From positions 1,741,001-1,805,000 of the forward strand of contig NZ_JMKS01000003.1 in NCBI RefSeq assembly GCF_000685865.1: a stretch of DNA of 64,000 bases, written 5' to 3'. Within the stretch, counting starts at the first letter, position 1, and each line of letters begins with the position of its first letter. This document shows, one piece after another, positions 19,811 to 27,154 of the stretch. Position numbers and translations under genes: made by a program. A model generated the notes under the pieces. The model worked only from the letters and a program-made list of their open reading frames with translations, made no database searches and had not been told where the DNA came from. The DNA comes from Exiguobacterium antarcticum DSM 14480. Lineage in GTDB: Bacteria > Bacillota > Bacilli > Exiguobacteriales > Exiguobacteriaceae.

Positions 19811-20746
19811 ATGGAACAATCCGAACATCTCAAAGAAAAACGAACTGGGCGTAGATTTCCGAGAAGGACAGCTGAAGAATTGGAACTCCAACGTAAGATG
19901 AAACTTAACCATTTTGTTCGGCAAGCTGAGTTTTTTAAGCTATCGGAAAAACCGGACTTTGTTCAAGCCAAGAAGTGGCTGTTACAGGCACTACATATAG
20001 AAAAGAATCATCCGATTGCCAATTATCGACTGGGATATCTTCTTTACCGTGAGCACCAGTATGAAATGGCGGTTTATCATTTTAAGACTGCGCTTGACGG
20101 CACGGAGAACGATGTCTTGAGTGAGACACAGTTGATTTTAGCGAATACATTTCTCGTTAATTGCGGAATGGCGATTACACGGGAGGCCTTGCGTGAGTTA
20201 GAGGATTTGGGACTTCGAATCGAAGGGGAGATAGATCAAGAACGCATCGAACGCTACCGCGCTGAAATGCTTGTCCAAGAAGAGAATATGCTAGATCGTC
20301 TGTATTATCGGAAAATCACGGCAGGACATGAAACGATCATCAATGAAGAACAGTTTTACGACATCCGTCCGGATAAAGGAGAGCTGTTACTCCGAAGTTC
20401 GGATGATGGGAAAACGTTGCAGGTAGATGGAAAACCAGCTGAATTATTAAATCTGCATATGTTCTTAACGCTCGTGTTACTGAATCAAAAAGCATTTCAA
20501 CCATATCCGGTTTTACAGGATGCTTTGTCTGAATTAGGGGGACAAAGGATTTCTTACAACTATATGCGACAGTTAATTCGGAGAATTCGTGATCAGTTTG
20601 TTACGTTGAATTTGATTGAATCGACATCTATTTCTTCTCCTGATTCTTCACGTCCTGTCCAAGGATTTCGCATTCACCCGAACTGGTCGGTGACGATTCT
20701 TTGTCGGGCAGATGATTTCATTGTATTGTCTTCGAGGACGGAATGA
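19811..20746 (+). CDS. TPR protein with C-terminal winged-helix-like domain
   Basis: A 311-residue protein. Residues about 50-110 contain TPR-like helices (AKKWLLQALHIEKNHPIANY and the following pair). Residues about 195-311 look like a transcriptional-regulator C-terminal winged helix: a strand-rich start, then QLIRRIRDQFVTLNLIES and a final hairpin. TAGGAGGAAA precedes the ATG. It could be a signal-responsive regulator of the divergent peptidase; this is inference from position. IS-A has inserted 62 bases after its stop. Confidence 0.65.
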   Translation: MEQSEHLKEKRTGRRFPRRTAEELELQRKMKLNHFVRQAEFFKLSEKPDFVQAKKWLLQALHIEKNHPIANYRLGYLLYREHQYEMAVYHFKTALDGTENDVLSETQLILANTFLVNCGMAITREALRELEDLGLRIEGEIDQERIERYRAEMLVQEENMLDRLYYRKITAGHETIINEEQFYDIRPDKGELLLRSSDDGKTLQVDGKPAELLNLHMFLTLVLLNQKAFQPYPVLQDALSELGGQRISYNYMRQLIRRIRDQFVTLNLIESTSISSPDSSRPVQGFRIHPNWSVTILCRADDFIVLSSRTE

Positions 20747-20876: not shown

Positions 20877-21554
20877 ATGACAAGAACTAAGCATTCCGTT
20901 GAACAAAAATTAGAGGCGCTCCGAATGCTTGCATCCAATAAGTATACGGTCCAGGAAGTGTGTAAGACCCATCGGGTCTCTAGGAGTACGTTAGAGCGTT
21001 GGAAGGCACGGTTGCATTCAGGTGGAGTGGCTTCTTTCGAGGAATCTTCTTCATTGAAAATCTATACGAAAGAGCTAAAGCAAGCAGCTGTCCGTGATTA
21101 TCTCGAACACGGGTTTACAGCGCTTGAAGTCCTCTCAAAATATCAAATTAGTAGCACATCTGTTTTTTATGGATGGATCAAAAAGTATACTAGTCATAGC
21201 GAATTAAAAGACTCTAGAAAAGAGGCGGTTAAAGCTATGACAAAAGGCAGACAGACAACTTTAGAGGAACGGATTGAAATAATCGAATATTGTCTCCAAA
21301 ACGGACGAAACTACAAACAGACATCCGTGATATTTGATGTCGCCTATCATCAAGTCTATGGATGGATGAAAAAATATGATGTCGACGGTATGGAGGGGCT
21401 CGAAGATCGACGCGGGCGGACGAAGCAGGAGGAAGAGCTGACTGAGGCGGAACGATTAACGCGTCGTCTCCAGCAGATGGAACGGGAGATCGAACGTCTT
21501 CGTATTGAAAATCTGTTCCTAAAAAAGTTGAAGGAGATCGAGAGGAGGAATTAA
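20877..21554 (+). CDS. IS3-family OrfA (IS-A)
   Basis: A 225-residue DNA-binding subunit with two helix-turn-helix modules (KYTVQEVCKTHRVSRSTLER and YKQTSVIFDVAYHQVYGWM) and a C-terminal leucine-zipper-like segment. An AAAAAAG slippery site at 21521-21527 near the 3' end would allow -1 frameshifting into orfB. Intact, but its partner orfB is truncated, so IS-A cannot make a working OrfAB. Confidence 0.88.
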   Translation: MTRTKHSVEQKLEALRMLASNKYTVQEVCKTHRVSRSTLERWKARLHSGGVASFEESSSLKIYTKELKQAAVRDYLEHGFTALEVLSKYQISSTSVFYGWIKKYTSHSELKDSRKEAVKAMTKGRQTTLEERIEIIEYCLQNGRNYKQTSVIFDVAYHQVYGWMKKYDVDGMEGLEDRRGRTKQEEELTEAERLTRRLQQMEREIERLRIENLFLKKLKEIERRN

Positions 21555-22078
21555 TCAGTCAGATTCGGCTACAACGACGATATGTCGCCATCTACGAACT
21601 AGCGATAGAAGAAGCATCATCCATCGTGTTACTCTGTGAAATCGCACAGGTCTCACGTGCCGCTTATTATAAATGGTTGAACCGCACCGTGTCGGTGCGT
21701 GAACGAGAGAACCAGACCCTCCTAGAGGATATCCGAGTACTGTACGATCAAGTGAGAGGGATCTACGGATACCGTCGGATCACGATGACAATCAATCGCC
21801 GCCGCCGAGAAGATAATCTTCCTGTCTACAACGAAAAACGGATCCATCGTTTGATGCGTATTCATGACATCAAGTCGATCATCCGACAGAAGCGAAAGGG
21901 TCATAAGAAATCTACACCACAACATACAGCAGAGAACTTGATGAATCGTGATTTTAGTGCTTCTAGGCGAGATGAAAAATGGTGTACGGATATCACCGAG
22001 TTCAAATATGGAGTTGGAAAAAAGGCCTATTTGAGTGCCATTATGAACTGCTCCCCGTCAAGTAGACAGGCGAAATAA
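21521..22078 (+). pseudogene. IS3-family OrfB (IS-A), 3'-truncated
   Basis: Read in the -1 frame from the slippery site: open through LQRRYVAIYELAIEEA, then SRAAYYKWLNR and the start of the rve core KWCTDITEFKYG (first Asp). The reading frame passes into IS-B after KKAYLSAIM and stops at 22078. The second and third catalytic residues are missing, so it is inactive. Confidence 0.85.
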
Positions 22079-22088
22079 TAAAAATCTT

Positions 22089-23003
22089 TTAAACGGCTTG
22101 AGCCCTGAATTCCAGCGGACTCAAGCCGTTTAGTCGTTCTTGGTATCGTTCTTCGTTATAGAATCGAATGTATTGCTGAATCGCATGACAGAGTTCGTCG
22201 AACTCCTCAAACTTATGTAGATAATAACTCTCACACTTCAATGCGCCCCAGAACGATTCCATCGGACCATTATCGATGCATTTACCGACACGAGACATAC
22301 TTTGTGTAATGCCTGCTGCTTTCGTCATTCGACGGAAAGCATGCGACGTATATTGAAACCCACGATCGCTATGTAGAAGTGGTTGGCTTTCTGGTGCGCC
22401 CTGAAGGGCGCGTTCAAGCGTATCGAACACGAGTTGATTGTTATTCGAATGACCGATGACAAACGAACGAATGGATCCGTCGTACAGGTCTAGAATGGCA
22501 CTTAGATACGCCTTTTGGGATGCGCCATACTTCAGTTCCGTGACATCCGTTACCCATTTCTGATTCGGTCCCGCCGCATGGAAATCACGATTCAGGATAT
22601 TCTCTGTCGTCTGTTGAGGAAGGTGGCGCATATATTTGGGACGCTTTCGACGGATGACACAGTAGATTCGGGCAACGCCCATCAAGCGACGGATTCGCTT
22701 CGAGTTGACGTTTCTGCCAAAGCGACGTTTCAGGTTCAGTGTCATTCGGCGGTATCCGTAAATTCCGTTCACCGAATAGTGAATCTGGCACATCTCTTCG
22801 ATGATCCGTGTGTTCTCGGTCTCCCGTACCGTCGGTACACGATGTAACCATTTATAGTAAGCTGCACGCGAGATACCCGCAAGGTCACATAAGGCTACGA
22901 TGGGATAACCGAATTGCGCTGCGAATGACTGGATCGCCTCGTATTTATCTCGATTACGAACTTGGCTTAACGTGACCTCCTCTCGATCTCCTCTAACTTT
23001 TTT
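22089..23003 (-). CDS. IS3-family OrfB transposase (IS-B)
   Basis: The integrase-core protein of IS-B, in the -1 frame relative to orfA and open from the AAAAAAG slippery site at about 23003. It contains SRAAYYKWLHR, the Asp of WVTDVTELKYG, the Asp of HSDRGFQYTS and the Glu region of DNGPMESFWGALK, so the DDE triad is complete. No strong internal start with ribosome site is seen; translation as an OrfAB fusion by frameshifting is the family rule. Confidence 0.85.
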   Translation of the reverse strand, partial: KKVRGDREEVTLSQVRNRDKYEAIQSFAAQFGYPIVALCDLAGISRAAYYKWLHRVPTVRETENTRIIEEMCQIHYSVNGIYGYRRMTLNLKRRFGRNVNSKRIRRLMGVARIYCVIRRKRPKYMRHLPQQTTENILNRDFHAAGPNQKWVTDVTELKYGASQKAYLSAILDLYDGSIRSFVIGHSNNNQLVFDTLERALQGAPESQPLLHSDRGFQYTSHAFRRMTKAAGITQSMSRVGKCIDNGPMESFWGALKCESYYLHKFEEFDELCHAIQQYIRFYNEERYQERLNGLSPLEFRAQAV

Positions 23004-23644
23004 AGGAAAGCGTTCTCCATTCGCAGACGCTCATTTTCTTTCTCGAGTTGTTTCATTTCAATAGTGAAACGTTCTCCAGCGGTCAATTCTTCCTTCGGTT
23101 TCCGACGTCCCCGGCGGTCCAACAGTGCGTCTATCCCGTCTTTCTCGAACTTCCTTACCCAGCTGTAGATTTGTTGATACGAGACCCGATGGGTCTTCAT
23201 GGTGTGTTGATAGTCTTTCCCGTTCTGTATGCAGTCCATAACTGCCTCGACGCGCTCTTCGAATGTTGTTTTTCTTGCTTTGGTCATAGTGAATCGCTCC
23301 TTCAACGGTTTCCCTTGAGTACTATGACCAGTATACTGGCTAATCCATCTTTGAAGCACGCTCTTACTCGAGATGCCGAATCTTAGCGTGGCACTCCTGA
23401 GTGATTCCTCACGGTCTAGCACTGCGCGTACGGCCTGTGTTTTCAGTTCTTCTGAATAGCGTGTCCATCCCGTTCTATTACTTAGAGCTGAGGCACCACC
23501 GTGACGGTATCGTCTTCGCCAAGTATTCAACGTATCGAGTGAAAGCTCGAAGAGCGACGCAATCTCCTTTAACGTATATGTTCCGTTATCGTACATCTGT
23601 ATGATGTGTATTTTTTCATCAAGCAAAAATTTAGATGTGGCCAT
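22967..23644 (-). CDS. IS3-family OrfA (IS-B)
   Basis: A 225-residue helix-turn-helix protein similar in design to the IS-A copy but clearly diverged. YTLKEIASLFELSLDTLNTW and YQHTMKTHRVSYQQIYSWV are the two DNA-binding modules. The start at 23644 (MATSKFLLDEK) follows GAAGGGAG; an in-frame ATG at 23662 lies upstream of that site. Intact. Confidence 0.88.
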   Translation of the reverse strand: MATSKFLLDEKIHIIQMYDNGTYTLKEIASLFELSLDTLNTWRRRYRHGGASALSNRTGWTRYSEELKTQAVRAVLDREESLRSATLRFGISSKSVLQRWISQYTGHSTQGKPLKERFTMTKARKTTFEERVEAVMDCIQNGKDYQHTMKTHRVSYQQIYSWVRKFEKDGIDALLDRRGRRKPKEELTAGERFTIEMKQLEKENERLRMENAFLKKLEEIERRSR

Positions 23645-23752
23645 AGAAAAAGCTCCCTTCAAAAGTAGACAGTTTTGTTATTTCAACTGTCTACTTTTGT
23701 GGGAGCATATCAGGAGCAGTTCATTTAGATTGCTTCTTTTTTTGTATTCCGT

Positions 23753-23820
23753 AAAAAAATCTTTACCAAGAAGACAAAATGGTTTTAACTCACCGAGTTG
23801 TCTTCTCATAAAGATTTTTT
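23753..23820 (-). terminator. Terminator of the Excalibur repeat protein gene
   Basis: AAAAAATCTTTA plus AGAAGACAA on one arm and TTGTCTTCT plus AAAGATTTTTT on the other, a long imperfect stem ending in a T-tract on the minus strand, 24 bases beyond the stop. Confidence 0.75.
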
Positions 23821-23843
23821 GCGAAATACACATATAAAATCGG

Positions 23844-25322
23844 TTATCGTTCACAAGCGAAGTTATCTTTATCCCGATCCATCTTCGATTGATAAGCAGG
23901 ATGCGTTGAAGGAACACCGTTCGGATAGACCTGTGTCAATTCTGTACAGTTTGCAAAAGAAGCATCTTTCTTTGCTTTAGCATCAGCTTTCGCTTTGGCA
24001 TCAGCTTTCGCTTTGGCATCAGCTTTCGCTTTGGCATCAGCTTTCGCTTTGGCATCAGCTTTCGCTTTGGCATCAGCTTTCGCTTTGGCATCAGCTTTCG
24101 CTTTGGCATCAGCTTTCGCTTTGGCATCAGCTTTCGCTTTGGCATCAGCTTTCGCTTTGGCATCAGCTTTCGCTTTAGCATCAGCTTTCGCTTTAGCATC
24201 AGCTTTCGCTTTGGCATCAGCTTTCGCTTTGGCATCAGCTTTCGCTTTGGCATCAGCTTTCGCTTTGGCATCAGCTTTCGCTTTGGCATCAGCTTTCGCT
24301 TTGGCATCAGCTTTCGCTTTGGCATCAGCTTTCGCTTTGGCATCAGCTTTCGCTTTGGCATCAGCTTTCGCTTTAGCATCAGCTTTCGCTTTAGCATCAG
24401 CTTTCGCTTTGGCATCAGCTTTCGCTTTGGCATCAGCTTTCGCTTTGGCATCAGCTTTCGCTTTGGCATCAGCTTTCGCTTTGGCATCAGCTTTCGCTTT
24501 AGCATCAGCTTTCGCTTTAGCATCAGCTTTCGCTTTGGCATCAGCTTTCGCTTTGGCATCAGCTTTCGCTTTGGCATCAGCTTTCGCTTTGGCATCAGCT
24601 TTCGCTTTGGCATCAGCTTTCGCTTTGGCATCAGCTTTCGCTTTGGCATCAGCTTTCGCTTTGGCATCAGCTTTCGCTTTGGCATCAGCTTTCGCTTTAG
24701 CATCAGCTTTCGCTTTAGCATCAGCTTTCGCTTTGGCATCAGCTTTCGCTTTGGCATCAGCTTTCGCTTTGGCATCAGCTTTCGCTTTGGCATCAGCTTT
24801 CGCTTTGGCATCAGCTTTCGCTTTGGCATCAGCTTTCGCTTTGGCATCAGCTTTCGCTTTGGCATCAGCTTTCGCTTTGGCATCAGCTTTCGCTTTATCA
24901 TCGGCTTTTGATTTAGCATCGGCTTTTGCTTTAGCATCGGTCTTCGCCTTATCCTCGTCTTCTTGCTCAGTCGTTACTTTATCTACATCTTGGTCCGGTT
25001 CATCGGTTTTTTGAATTTTCGCCGGAGCAACAGATTTTGACAAGGTATTCGGCGCATTAGTTTCAGCAAAATCCGTATCAGGTAATTCATATCCTAAAAC
25101 GAATATGGCAATTAGTGTAGTAAGTATCATCCAAAGTAATGGTCGTTTCACAACAAACTTTTTATTGCGTATTTTTTGAAAGAATTGATAAGCAAAAAAT
25201 AGGCTGACCAGAAATAAAATACCGGAGAAAACTGAAGTAGTGGCAATAGACCCTATTAACAGTAAGACAGTAAGAAGCATTGTTAATATTCCTATTATTA
25301 CGAGAAAAACTCTATTCTTCAT
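23844..25322 (-). CDS. Membrane-anchored repeat-stalk protein with Excalibur domain
   Basis: A 492-residue protein. Residues 1-85 form two or three membrane segments; residues about 90-140 are acidic and Glu/Thr rich; residues about 140-450 are a low-complexity stalk of six-residue AKADAK units; the C-terminus is an Excalibur calcium-binding domain (FANCTELTQVYPNG...DRDKDNFACER). The DxDxD-type loop and the two cysteines are intact. AAAGGAG precedes the ATG at 25322. Excalibur domains occur in extracellular nucleases and surface proteins; here the stalk would hold the domain away from the membrane, through the wall. No LPXTG motif or enzymatic domain is present. Confidence 0.85.
   Translation of the reverse strand: MKNRVFLVIIGILTMLLTVLLLIGSIATTSVFSGILFLVSLFFAYQFFQKIRNKKFVVKRPLLWMILTTLIAIFVLGYELPDTDFAETNAPNTLSKSVAPAKIQKTDEPDQDVDKVTTEQEDEDKAKTDAKAKADAKSKADDKAKADAKAKADAKAKADAKAKADAKAKADAKAKADAKAKADAKAKADAKAKADAKAKADAKAKADAKAKADAKAKADAKAKADAKAKADAKAKADAKAKADAKAKADAKAKADAKAKADAKAKADAKAKADAKAKADAKAKADAKAKADAKAKADAKAKADAKAKADAKAKADAKAKADAKAKADAKAKADAKAKADAKAKADAKAKADAKAKADAKAKADAKAKADAKAKADAKAKADAKAKADAKAKADAKAKADAKAKADAKAKADAKAKADAKAKADAKAKADAKAKADAKAKADAKAKADAKAKKDASFANCTELTQVYPNGVPSTHPAYQSKMDRDKDNFACER
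23976..24900 (-). repeat. 18-bp tandem repeat array, about 51 units
   Basis: The plus-strand unit is GCATCAGCTTTCGCTTTG. Phase is unbroken from about 23979 to 24897 (918 bases, 51 units). Most units are identical; a single G-to-A variant (TTTAGCA instead of TTTGGCA) occurs at 23979, 24177, 24195, 24375, 24393, 24501, 24519, 24699 and 24717, with a further A at 24897 in TTTATCA. Spacing between doublets is 198, 126 and 198 bases, showing block duplication. Confidence 0.95.
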
Positions 25323-25361
25323 TTTATTTCACTCCTTTTATATTTTATTATGTAAAATATA

Positions 25362-26671
25362 GGCTCATCACCATAACACGTGGTTGCTATTTTAACGACC
25401 AAGCTCAAGGCGCAATCTCAAAAAGAATCGTTCGAGGTTTCGGTAGCCATAACCACGACGTTTAATGAGCTTAATCTTATTGTTCGTCCCTTCCATTTTC
25501 CCATTCGATAGTGTCGATACAATGGTTTGACGCATCGCTTCTTCACGGCCACGAATCGCTTTCGCGATTTTCGCAAGAGGTCCGCATGGATGAAATTGAT
25601 AACGTTCCAGCCAGTCTTTCAGTCTTCGGCATGCCTGCCCGTCGCACGTTGCTTTCAACACATATCGAATATGTTGGAGTCCTTGATAAAGATCCCGGGT
25701 AAACGAGTCTTCTAGAATACAAGAATGGGCGACCTCTCGATCTTCAAGAGCCAATGCTTCCGGACGACAAGCGAGAGCACGATCAATCACACGAACATGA
25801 TGATGGCGTCTTGCCTCGTTCAAAAAACGACGCCGGCGGCGAAGAGCATCCGTAAAGAACTGGATGAGATGAAAACGATCCAGCACATGCGCTGCATTCG
25901 GGAAGACACGAGTAGTTGCCTTCGCCATCGCAGGTGCAAAATCACTGACGACAGAACGAACATCTCCCAGTACACCTTGAAGCGCAGCCGTAATCGCCGA
26001 TACGTCCCGGCCCGGGACGATAGACAGAAGACGTCCAGTCTTGGCATCAAGAACGATCGTCGCATAGTGGTGTCCTTTTCTCGTGGCGAACTCATCGACG
26101 AGGATGTGTGTCGCCTGTCCCACTGTATCCACTGAAGCGTACTGATAAAACCACCGTTCCACAGTCGTATAAGGAAGTTCATATTCATGCGCAACATCTG
26201 AAATTGTCCGGCCATGGCACCGTTCTGTGATGCCTTTTCGGAACACTTCGGTAGAAGTACGGACGAGTCCGAGACCGTAGTCATATACGAACGTCAAATC
26301 ACAAGAGAGGCATCTTTGACGTGGGACATCCAGTTCGATCCACAAGGCACCGACTCCCCACGCATGACCGTGTCGAAAACGACGACGTTTTTTCGAATGC
26401 AGGATGGTCTTTTTTTCGCATAGCGGACAAGGGATTTCATGTGTATCAGGAATGACAGGAAATACGTGCGGTTCTTCATCGGACGACATCTGGATTTGAA
26501 AAAGGGCTGGAAGCGGAAGAATTAATTTGATAAACTGTTGGGACAAGGCGAAAACTCCAATCGTGGTTTGTCTAGACAACAATTACGATACCGGGGTTTT
26601 CGCTTTTTTTCTATGTTCGATTTAAAATCCGATGGATTTTATGTGTCAACCACACCTTATGGTGATGAGCC
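25362..26671 (-). mobile_element. ISL3-family insertion sequence
   Basis: A 1310-bp element with inverted ends GGCTCATCACCATAA and a perfect 8-bp target duplication AAAATATA at 25354-25361 and 26672-26679, the size typical of ISL3. It separates two Excalibur-domain genes that are otherwise neighbours. Confidence 0.95.
25392..26582 (-). CDS. ISL3-family transposase
   Basis: A 396-residue transposase. The N-terminal zinc-binding region has CPLCEKK and CLSCDLTF pairs; a helix-turn-helix lies near GRTISDVAHEYELPYTTVER; the catalytic core starts ILVDEFATRKGHHYATIV and includes VVSDFAPAM and HVLDRFHL. The C-terminal NGKMEGTNNKIKLIKRRGYG is the family hallmark with the Glu. The frame begins with TTG at 26582 and no clear ribosome site, so the exact start is uncertain. 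Intact. Confidence 0.92.
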   Translation of the reverse strand: MLSRQTTIGVFALSQQFIKLILPLPALFQIQMSSDEEPHVFPVIPDTHEIPCPLCEKKTILHSKKRRRFRHGHAWGVGALWIELDVPRQRCLSCDLTFVYDYGLGLVRTSTEVFRKGITERCHGRTISDVAHEYELPYTTVERWFYQYASVDTVGQATHILVDEFATRKGHHYATIVLDAKTGRLLSIVPGRDVSAITAALQGVLGDVRSVVSDFAPAMAKATTRVFPNAAHVLDRFHLIQFFTDALRRRRRFLNEARRHHHVRVIDRALACRPEALALEDREVAHSCILEDSFTRDLYQGLQHIRYVLKATCDGQACRRLKDWLERYQFHPCGPLAKIAKAIRGREEAMRQTIVSTLSNGKMEGTNNKIKLIKRRGYGYRNLERFFLRLRLELGR

Positions 26672-26854
26672 AAAATATAACATATTATTAAAAAATGGGA
26701 ATGGAATTTTAAAAATAACAATAGGAAATATAAACAGGTAAGTAAGACAAAGTTAATAAATAAATGTCAAAAATAAAAAAGCATTTTCTAATAAAATACT
26801 CTATAATCAAATTATCACTAAAATTTGGAATTTCAGAATTGAGGAAGAATTGAC

Positions 26855-27154
26855 ATGAACAAAGCAGTAAAACTCATCATGACAGGTGTACTTAGTCTCT
26901 CATTGATCAGTGTGACATCAGCTGAAAGTCACGCGGCGACGAAAGCCAAGGCATTCAAAAACTGTACGGAGATGCAGAAAACGTACAAGGGTGGAGTTTC
27001 GAAGAAGGCGGGACTCAAAAACCGGACCGGCTACGACAAAAACGGCAAAGCCATCTACAAAGAGACAAAATACAAAGCTTATGTCAGCTTAGCGACGTAT
27101 AACCTTAATACAAAAAGTGACCGTGACAAAGACGGCATCGCCTGCGAACGTTAA
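26855..27154 (+). CDS. Small secreted Excalibur-domain protein
   Basis: A 99-residue protein with a signal peptide (cleavage likely after SHA near residue 28) and an Excalibur domain: FKNCTEMQKTYKGG at the start and DRDKDGIACER at the end. The Asp-rich loop suggests Ca2+ binding outside the cell. GAGGAAG precedes the ATG. It shares its domain with the large stalk protein at 23844-25322, and the two were adjacent and divergent before the ISL3 insertion. Confidence 0.88.
   Translation: MNKAVKLIMTGVLSLSLISVTSAESHAATKAKAFKNCTEMQKTYKGGVSKKAGLKNRTGYDKNGKAIYKETKYKAYVSLATYNLNTKSDRDKDGIACER

Follow-up and report, generated by a model that had tools for sequence, protein, structure and literature searches.

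A long six-residue-repeat stalk, probably lengthened by block duplication, in an Excalibur protein of Exiguobacterium antarcticum

The locus and the predicted protein

The window analysed here is a 64-kb stretch of the genome of Exiguobacterium antarcticum DSM 14480, and all coordinates refer to it. A gene on its minus strand (23844-25322) encodes a protein of 492 residues, in which the ORF list, Pfam and hydropathy together delineate hydrophobic N-terminal helices, an acidic linker, an Ala/Lys/Asp stalk and a C-terminal Excalibur domain. Pfam at E 0.01 gave no match within the stalk, and found in the protein only the Excalibur domain and a DUF2304 match that lies below the cut-off of that family. 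A comparison of the full protein with solved structures produced 13 matches (circumsporozoite protein, ribosomal eL29 and others), which were rejected, their best stretches lying in the repeat part at residues 136-453.

The N-terminal membrane part comprises approximately residues 1-80 (25083-25322, minus strand), as judged from hydropathy and a structural model. Hydropathy exceeds 1.6 (in 19-residue windows) within residues 1-49 and 56-81, and a low-confidence AlphaFold2 model has helices at residues 2-24, 29-52 and 61-77, so that this part is probably composed of three helices. The last helix is preceded by a basic loop, QKIRNKKFVVKRP. By the positive-inside rule for membrane protein topology, a basic loop between hydrophobic stretches predicts that the N-terminus is inside and the C-terminus outside, which would place the stalk outside the cell.

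The stalk itself is 324 residues long, made up of 108 lysines, 55 aspartates, 159 alanines and 2 serines, with a net charge of +53. AlphaFold2, run on the single sequence, draws residues 117-465 as one helix (mean pLDDT 70, pTM 0.24), which counts as weak evidence; structure programs tend to draw charged low-complexity stretches in this way. Opposite charges four residues apart occur 106 times, against a mean of 36 in shuffled sequences, which favours a helix, but the argument from helix-bridging pairs is weakened by the opposite charges three apart (2, against 36 in shuffles) and by the like charges four apart (53, against 45). On balance the stalk is probably largely helical, and as a helix it would be 48.6 nm long.

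The Excalibur domain occupies residues 456-491 (23850-23957, minus strand). It had been claimed in a first-pass annotation of this DNA, and Pfam bears it out: PF05901 matches with 49.4 bits against a cut-off of 22, over positions 1-36 of its 36. The match is strong, whereas the match to the solved domain 5J8T is a weak one in sequence (E 0.0026). Both conserved cysteines of the family are present, in NCT and ACE, and the putative calcium loop, DRDKDNFACE, compared with the consensus DxDxDGxxCE, keeps the four acidic ligands of the pneumococcal protein CbpL and has Asn in place of Gly.

The repeat array

The stalk is encoded by 54 in-register 18-bp units, which run from 24938 down to 23967 with the minus strand as the coding strand. 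Tandem Repeats Finder reports the array as 23970-24938, period 18, with 53.9 copies, 98% matches and a score of 1805. Two further arrays are reported for the window, with scores of 50 and 61. Units 1-3 and unit 54 are degenerate, and the units between them (4-53, 23985-24884) form a core array of 50 units and 900 bp that contains only two sequences, 42 copies of GATGCCAAAGCGAAAGCT and 8 of GATGCTAAAGCGAAAGCT, differing at one silent C/T site. The 8 T units form four doublets, and in coding order the core array reads C9 TT C9 TT C5 TT C9 TT C10. The doublets lie, all on the minus strand, at units 13-14 (24687-24722), 24-25 (24489-24524), 31-32 (24363-24398) and 42-43 (24165-24200), which gives steps of 11, 7 and 11 units (198, 126 and 198 bp); the third doublet is 324 bp, or 18 units, from the first, and the fourth is the same distance from the second.

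The first-pass annotation had described fifty-one units at 23976-24900, with variants recurring every 198 bases apart from one step of 126. The count corresponds to the units encoding DAKAKA, of which there are 51 (the 50 core units and unit 1, or 42 + 8 + 1), and the steps are as described. The array is present, but its exact core is shifted to 23985-24884.

Two long ORFs in other frames over the array (333 residues on the minus strand and 339 on the plus strand) were rejected as genes, since a frame that meets no stop within a single 18-bp unit is open along the whole array.

The orthologue and its locus in other genomes

When the N-terminal part was searched as an alignment of two rows, matches appeared in 2 of the order's 38 genomes, the present one and one other (G025). 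The orthologue in G025 has 23 units, of which 12 are distinct, so that between the two species (with one genome for each) the number of units differs as 54 to 23. Five of the units in the orthologue are the canonical 18-mer, which was therefore probably already present before the two orthologues split. The orthologous stalk of 138 residues would be 20.7 nm long if helical. The N-terminal parts are 76% identical in amino acids and differ at 31 of 115 third codon positions. The Excalibur tails are identical in 37 of 37 amino acids, even though 16 of the 37 third codon positions have changed. Selection thus conserves the head, and leaves the membrane part freer.

In both genomes the gene has the same position, between a gene matching window 19811-20746, for which Pfam gives only TPR matches below cut-off, and a small Excalibur gene of 99 residues (26855-27154). 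The latter was matched in 18 of the 19 genomes of the genus, counting one (G026) in which it is found only as two overlapping pieces; one examined locus, in G008, was without a match. It is adjoined in 16 of 18 loci by a cation-efflux gene and by a gene with a WCPDC motif, which we take to be thioredoxin-like. In three genomes (G023, G007 and G011), the whole interval between these two flanking genes is covered (in loci L052, L048 and L056) and the stalk gene is absent, and another ORF of 60 residues with a hydrophobic stretch is found instead. This ORF, tested by its first 17 bases, is absent from the window and from locus L039. The stalk locus thus has the look of a site at which alternatives replace one another, an apparent swap locus. 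The upstream gene of G023 is 95% identical to that of the present genome, against 66% for the one in G025. Since G023, the nearest genome by the upstream gene, is without the stalk gene, the gain or loss of the gene is patchy.

Beyond these genomes, a search for the N-terminal part in the genome_contigs collection, from which records of this genome or one very near it may have been excluded, gave 219 pattern matches, none of them confirmed, and a search of plasmids gave none.

How the array may have grown

The silent C/T site allows the history of the array to be followed. The 50 core units were coded as C or T and tandem duplications were undone stepwise, allowing for duplications only, with deletions and conversion left out. 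One undoing step reached 27 arrays, none with a single TT pair; two steps reached 320 arrays, exactly one of which has a single TT pair. In this sole two-step history, an array C9-TT-C10 of 21 units underwent an 11-unit duplication (198 bp) followed by an 18-unit duplication (324 bp), which reproduces all 50 core units. The 126-bp step is 324 minus 198, and hence needs no event of its own. The first-pass annotation had proposed growth by duplication of blocks, and this fits the result well; its description as a second-level 198-bp period with one exception still holds, but successive duplications of 11 and 18 units are the more economical account. Two steps would suffice for any arrangement of four pairs whose outer spacings are equal, so that the strength of the history rests on the equality of the two 11-unit steps and on the exact fit; moreover, single-unit changes within the runs of C are invisible to it. 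It is probable that the stalk gene was lengthened by the copying of whole blocks of repeats. The older array would have had about 25 units (21 core and 4 degenerate), and its closeness to the 23 of the orthologue is suggestive, but no more than that.

Averaged per site, diversity is 0.015 within the core of 50 units and 0.042 across all 54, and among the 23 units of the orthologue it is 0.150, amino acid changes included. Set against the 16 of 37 third positions that differ in the Excalibur tail, the low diversity of the core supports the view that the array has turned over since the split from the orthologue. The near-identity of the units is taken to show recent turnover, as distinct from present instability.

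Flanking elements and expression

An ISL3-type element (25354-26679, with its transposase at 25392-26582) separates the stalk gene from the small Excalibur gene. It is flanked by an 8-bp repeat, AAAATATA, at 25354-25361 and 26672-26679, and it begins about 40 bp upstream of the start codon of the stalk gene; the orthologous locus in G025 is without it. A sequence resembling a ribosome-binding site, AAAGGAG, is kept upstream of the stalk gene. A scan for consensus promoters, which found 8 sites over the whole stretch compared with 4.4 in shuffled sequences, gave no minus-strand site from the start codon to the element, and five beyond it. The insertion may thus have cut off the native promoter, and because promoter sites lie only beyond the element, the stalk gene may be silent in this strain, or driven from the element.

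A terminator-like hairpin (23752-23830, minus strand; fold -26 kcal/mol, z -5.9) closely follows the stop codon, although a consensus terminator scan did not list it. The orthologue in G025 has a hairpin of different sequence in the same place (-28.3, z -8.0). Further downstream, at 20877-23700, are two IS3-type elements in opposite orientation, with matches to HTH_Tnp_1, HTH_21 and rve. For one of them, a 1.6-kb stretch (22089-23700) occurs in the genome as five full copies, and the other appears truncated.

Comparison with known systems

TolA is a periplasmic protein of Gram-negative bacteria, with an N-terminal membrane anchor, a charged Ala-rich helical stalk and a C-terminal functional domain other than Excalibur. 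The stalk protein is predicted to have the same order of parts, an N-terminal anchor, a charged Ala-rich stalk and a C-terminal domain, the helix in this case coming only from a single-sequence model; the TolA family model gave no match to it in Pfam at E 0.01. For the tolA gene of E. coli, contractions of several repeat units have been reported that are RecA-dependent and can occur at 6.9e-5, and its copy number affects stress tolerance (PMC3477136). Both genes carry short in-frame repeats, of a 15-bp class in tolA and of 18 bp here, and in both the changes appear to involve several units at once (PMC3477136). In the account given there, however, the units of tolA are each unique, whereas 42 of the 50 core units are identical here, and it is for tolA that variation was measured (PMC3477136).

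In the Periscope Proteins, the repeats of the stalk have been proposed to set the distance of the functional domain from the cell (PMC8201768, PMC9704523). The resemblance lies in highly identical DNA repeats within a stalk (50 core units of 2 sequences), the surface location of the present protein being a predicted one. The definition requires individually folding tandem domains, with a search criterion of over 50 residues (PMC9704523), whereas the present units have six residues and fall outside it. As described in the same sources, Periscope Proteins typically have an N-terminal head and a C-terminal sortase anchor (PMC8201768, PMC9704523). The stalk protein is oriented differently, with N-terminal hydrophobic helices and a C-terminal head, and it ends in FACER. 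As to the variation between strains that characterises Periscope Proteins in those accounts, what we have here is 54 against 23 units between two species, with one genome each.

The Excalibur domain of CbpL is reported to be unfolded without calcium and to fold with it (PMC5137146). The present head shares with CbpL (5J8T) the family, the two cysteines and a loop with D, D, D and E, and by this analogy it should fold on calcium; it differs in that the Excalibur domain of CbpL is described as N-terminal and accompanied by a choline-binding module, whereas here it is C-terminal and the Gly of the loop is Asn (PMC5137146).

By analogy, the stalk protein probably works like the TolA repeats of E. 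coli or like the Periscope Proteins, and is a strict member of neither group. The locus clearly illustrates an established route by which surface proteins alter their length, and is not a new kind of system: the array is real and has a readable duplication history, and it provides a new example of a known principle. In the open-access papers searched we found none on calcium binding by Excalibur domains in Exiguobacterium, nothing related by title for 'AKADAK', and, among the papers listed for tandem-repeat surface proteins of Exiguobacterium, none on the stalk protein.

Possible function and alternative explanations

Taken together, the results are best explained, with a probability that we put at roughly 0.55, by a membrane-anchored protein whose outward-pointing stalk crosses the wall, carries a calcium-folded head at its end and changes length block by block. 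The hydrophobic N-terminal helices would hold the protein in the membrane, and the long, positively charged (AKADAK)n stalk, probably mostly helical, would cross the negatively charged wall and present the Excalibur domain, folded on calcium, at its far end. The length of the array would shift by recombination or slippage of whole blocks, recombination being presumed, and in this genome an older array of about 25 units would have gained first 11 units and then 18 more by duplication. Because a unit of 18 bp corresponds to six codons (0.9 nm if helical), the gain or loss of units keeps the frame and proceeds in steps of six residues; such changes would tune the protein instead of switching it off. 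Gram-positive walls are some 20-40 nm thick, and stalks of 48.6 and 20.7 nm could therefore fall on either side of a full crossing.

The alternative that survives best, and which we consider possible but distinctly less probable, is neutral turnover, in which the stalk is a passive, tolerant linker, served equally well by charged, Ala-rich sequence of any in-frame length, and its length drifts by unequal recombination and has no regulatory meaning. It is favoured by the absence of the stalk gene from most relatives (2 of the order's 38 genomes match the N-terminal part) and its replacement by an unrelated 60-residue ORF in three genomes, by the varied length of Ala/Lys/Asp-Glu tracts in other proteins of the genus (the tails of PBP1A-like proteins, and cysteine-rich membrane proteins), and by the IS element next to the start codon, which suggests relaxed constraint on expression in this strain. 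Against it, the head is conserved at 37 of 37 residues and the frame is intact through 54 units, which implies that the protein has been kept, but these observations do not separate a tuned length from a tolerated one. The single silent marker makes the order and size of two block duplications readable from one genome, with the 23-unit orthologue as an outside reference, and this provides a clean natural system for asking if a wall-crossing stalk has a tuned length or one that is simply tolerated. Should length matter, the principle of TolA and the Periscope Proteins would extend to a Gram-positive bacterium and to a stalk that is anchored in the membrane and built of six-residue units.

A stronger version of the wall-crossing stalk, which we regard as doubtful, is that the array acts as a heritable ruler whose length takes discrete states of about 25, 36 and 54 units, corresponding to hidden and exposed heads. 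If this were true, the calcium-folded head would move from within the wall (on a helix of ~21-23 nm) to beyond it (~49 nm), and a population would mix cells with hidden and with exposed heads, always in frame, unlike on/off phase variation.

A different objection concerns the duplications themselves, namely that the doublets arose by independent C-to-T changes, or by gene conversion without duplication. This view gains from the fact that the two-duplication history leans on the equal 11-unit steps and the exact fit, and from the omission of deletions and conversion from the search. However, of the 12 silent single-base changes that a hand count allows, a single one is seen in the 50 units, and always in adjacent pairs; with 8 T units placed at random among 50, exactly four isolated doublets would arise with a probability of 2.3e-4. 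We therefore think this objection improbable, and prefer block duplication.

It is worth adding that the array lies in a contig of 1.885 Mb in an assembly of 7 contigs. Repeats longer than the array are placed in this assembly: a 1191-bp transposase gene has 13 full copies in the genome (99-100% identical), four of them in the array contig, and a 1612-bp stretch is present five times at full length with near identity, including three times in the array contig. The copies next to the stalk gene are counted in both cases. An assembly artefact, collapsed or over-expanded, which the first-pass annotation had named as a possible undoing of its reading, is therefore highly improbable: near-identical arrays of 900 bp are hard for short reads, and the assembly is in 7 contigs, but collapse of a ~1-kb array is unlikely when near-identical IS stretches of 1.2-1.6 kb are placed in the same contig, and the T doublets and degenerate end units act as internal markers. 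The sequencing very probably included reads that exceed the array in length, and the exact number of units could still be off.

Other repeat and Excalibur proteins in the genus

Within the genus, the full stalk protein matched 13 of 19 genomes (counting the present one), and many of these hits reflect low-complexity similarity to unrelated proteins. Among those rejected as relatives are long ORFs of 787-1080 residues (L011-L015 and L025), low-complexity matches to (DA)n-repeat proteins of surface type that end in LPNTS, which we take to be an LPXTG-like motif. Ala/Lys/Asp-Glu tails of varied length are found at the C-terminus of eight ORFs (L017, L019, L020, L028, L029, L030, L036 and L037), named by eye as penicillin-binding-protein-like (PBP1A-like), and similar tracts occur in small cysteine-rich membrane proteins of the genus.

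The 36-bp double unit gave no matches in viral contigs and one stretch in genome_contigs, in a different gene of Exiguobacterium sp. KRL4. There the canonical 18-mer occurs twice in a row in an unrelated small cysteine-rich membrane protein (L018, and also L069). This may be a shared module or chance, chance being a possible explanation because it is one case among 12 loci (the stalk gene accounts for two of these) and the codons are biased.

Four of the full-protein matches (L016, L021, L031 and L032) are to other Excalibur proteins. One of these, at L032:964-1881, is a second Excalibur protein of the present genome with a different N-terminal part, laid out as a hydrophobic stretch, a charged Glu/Lys/Ala stalk and an Excalibur domain at the end.
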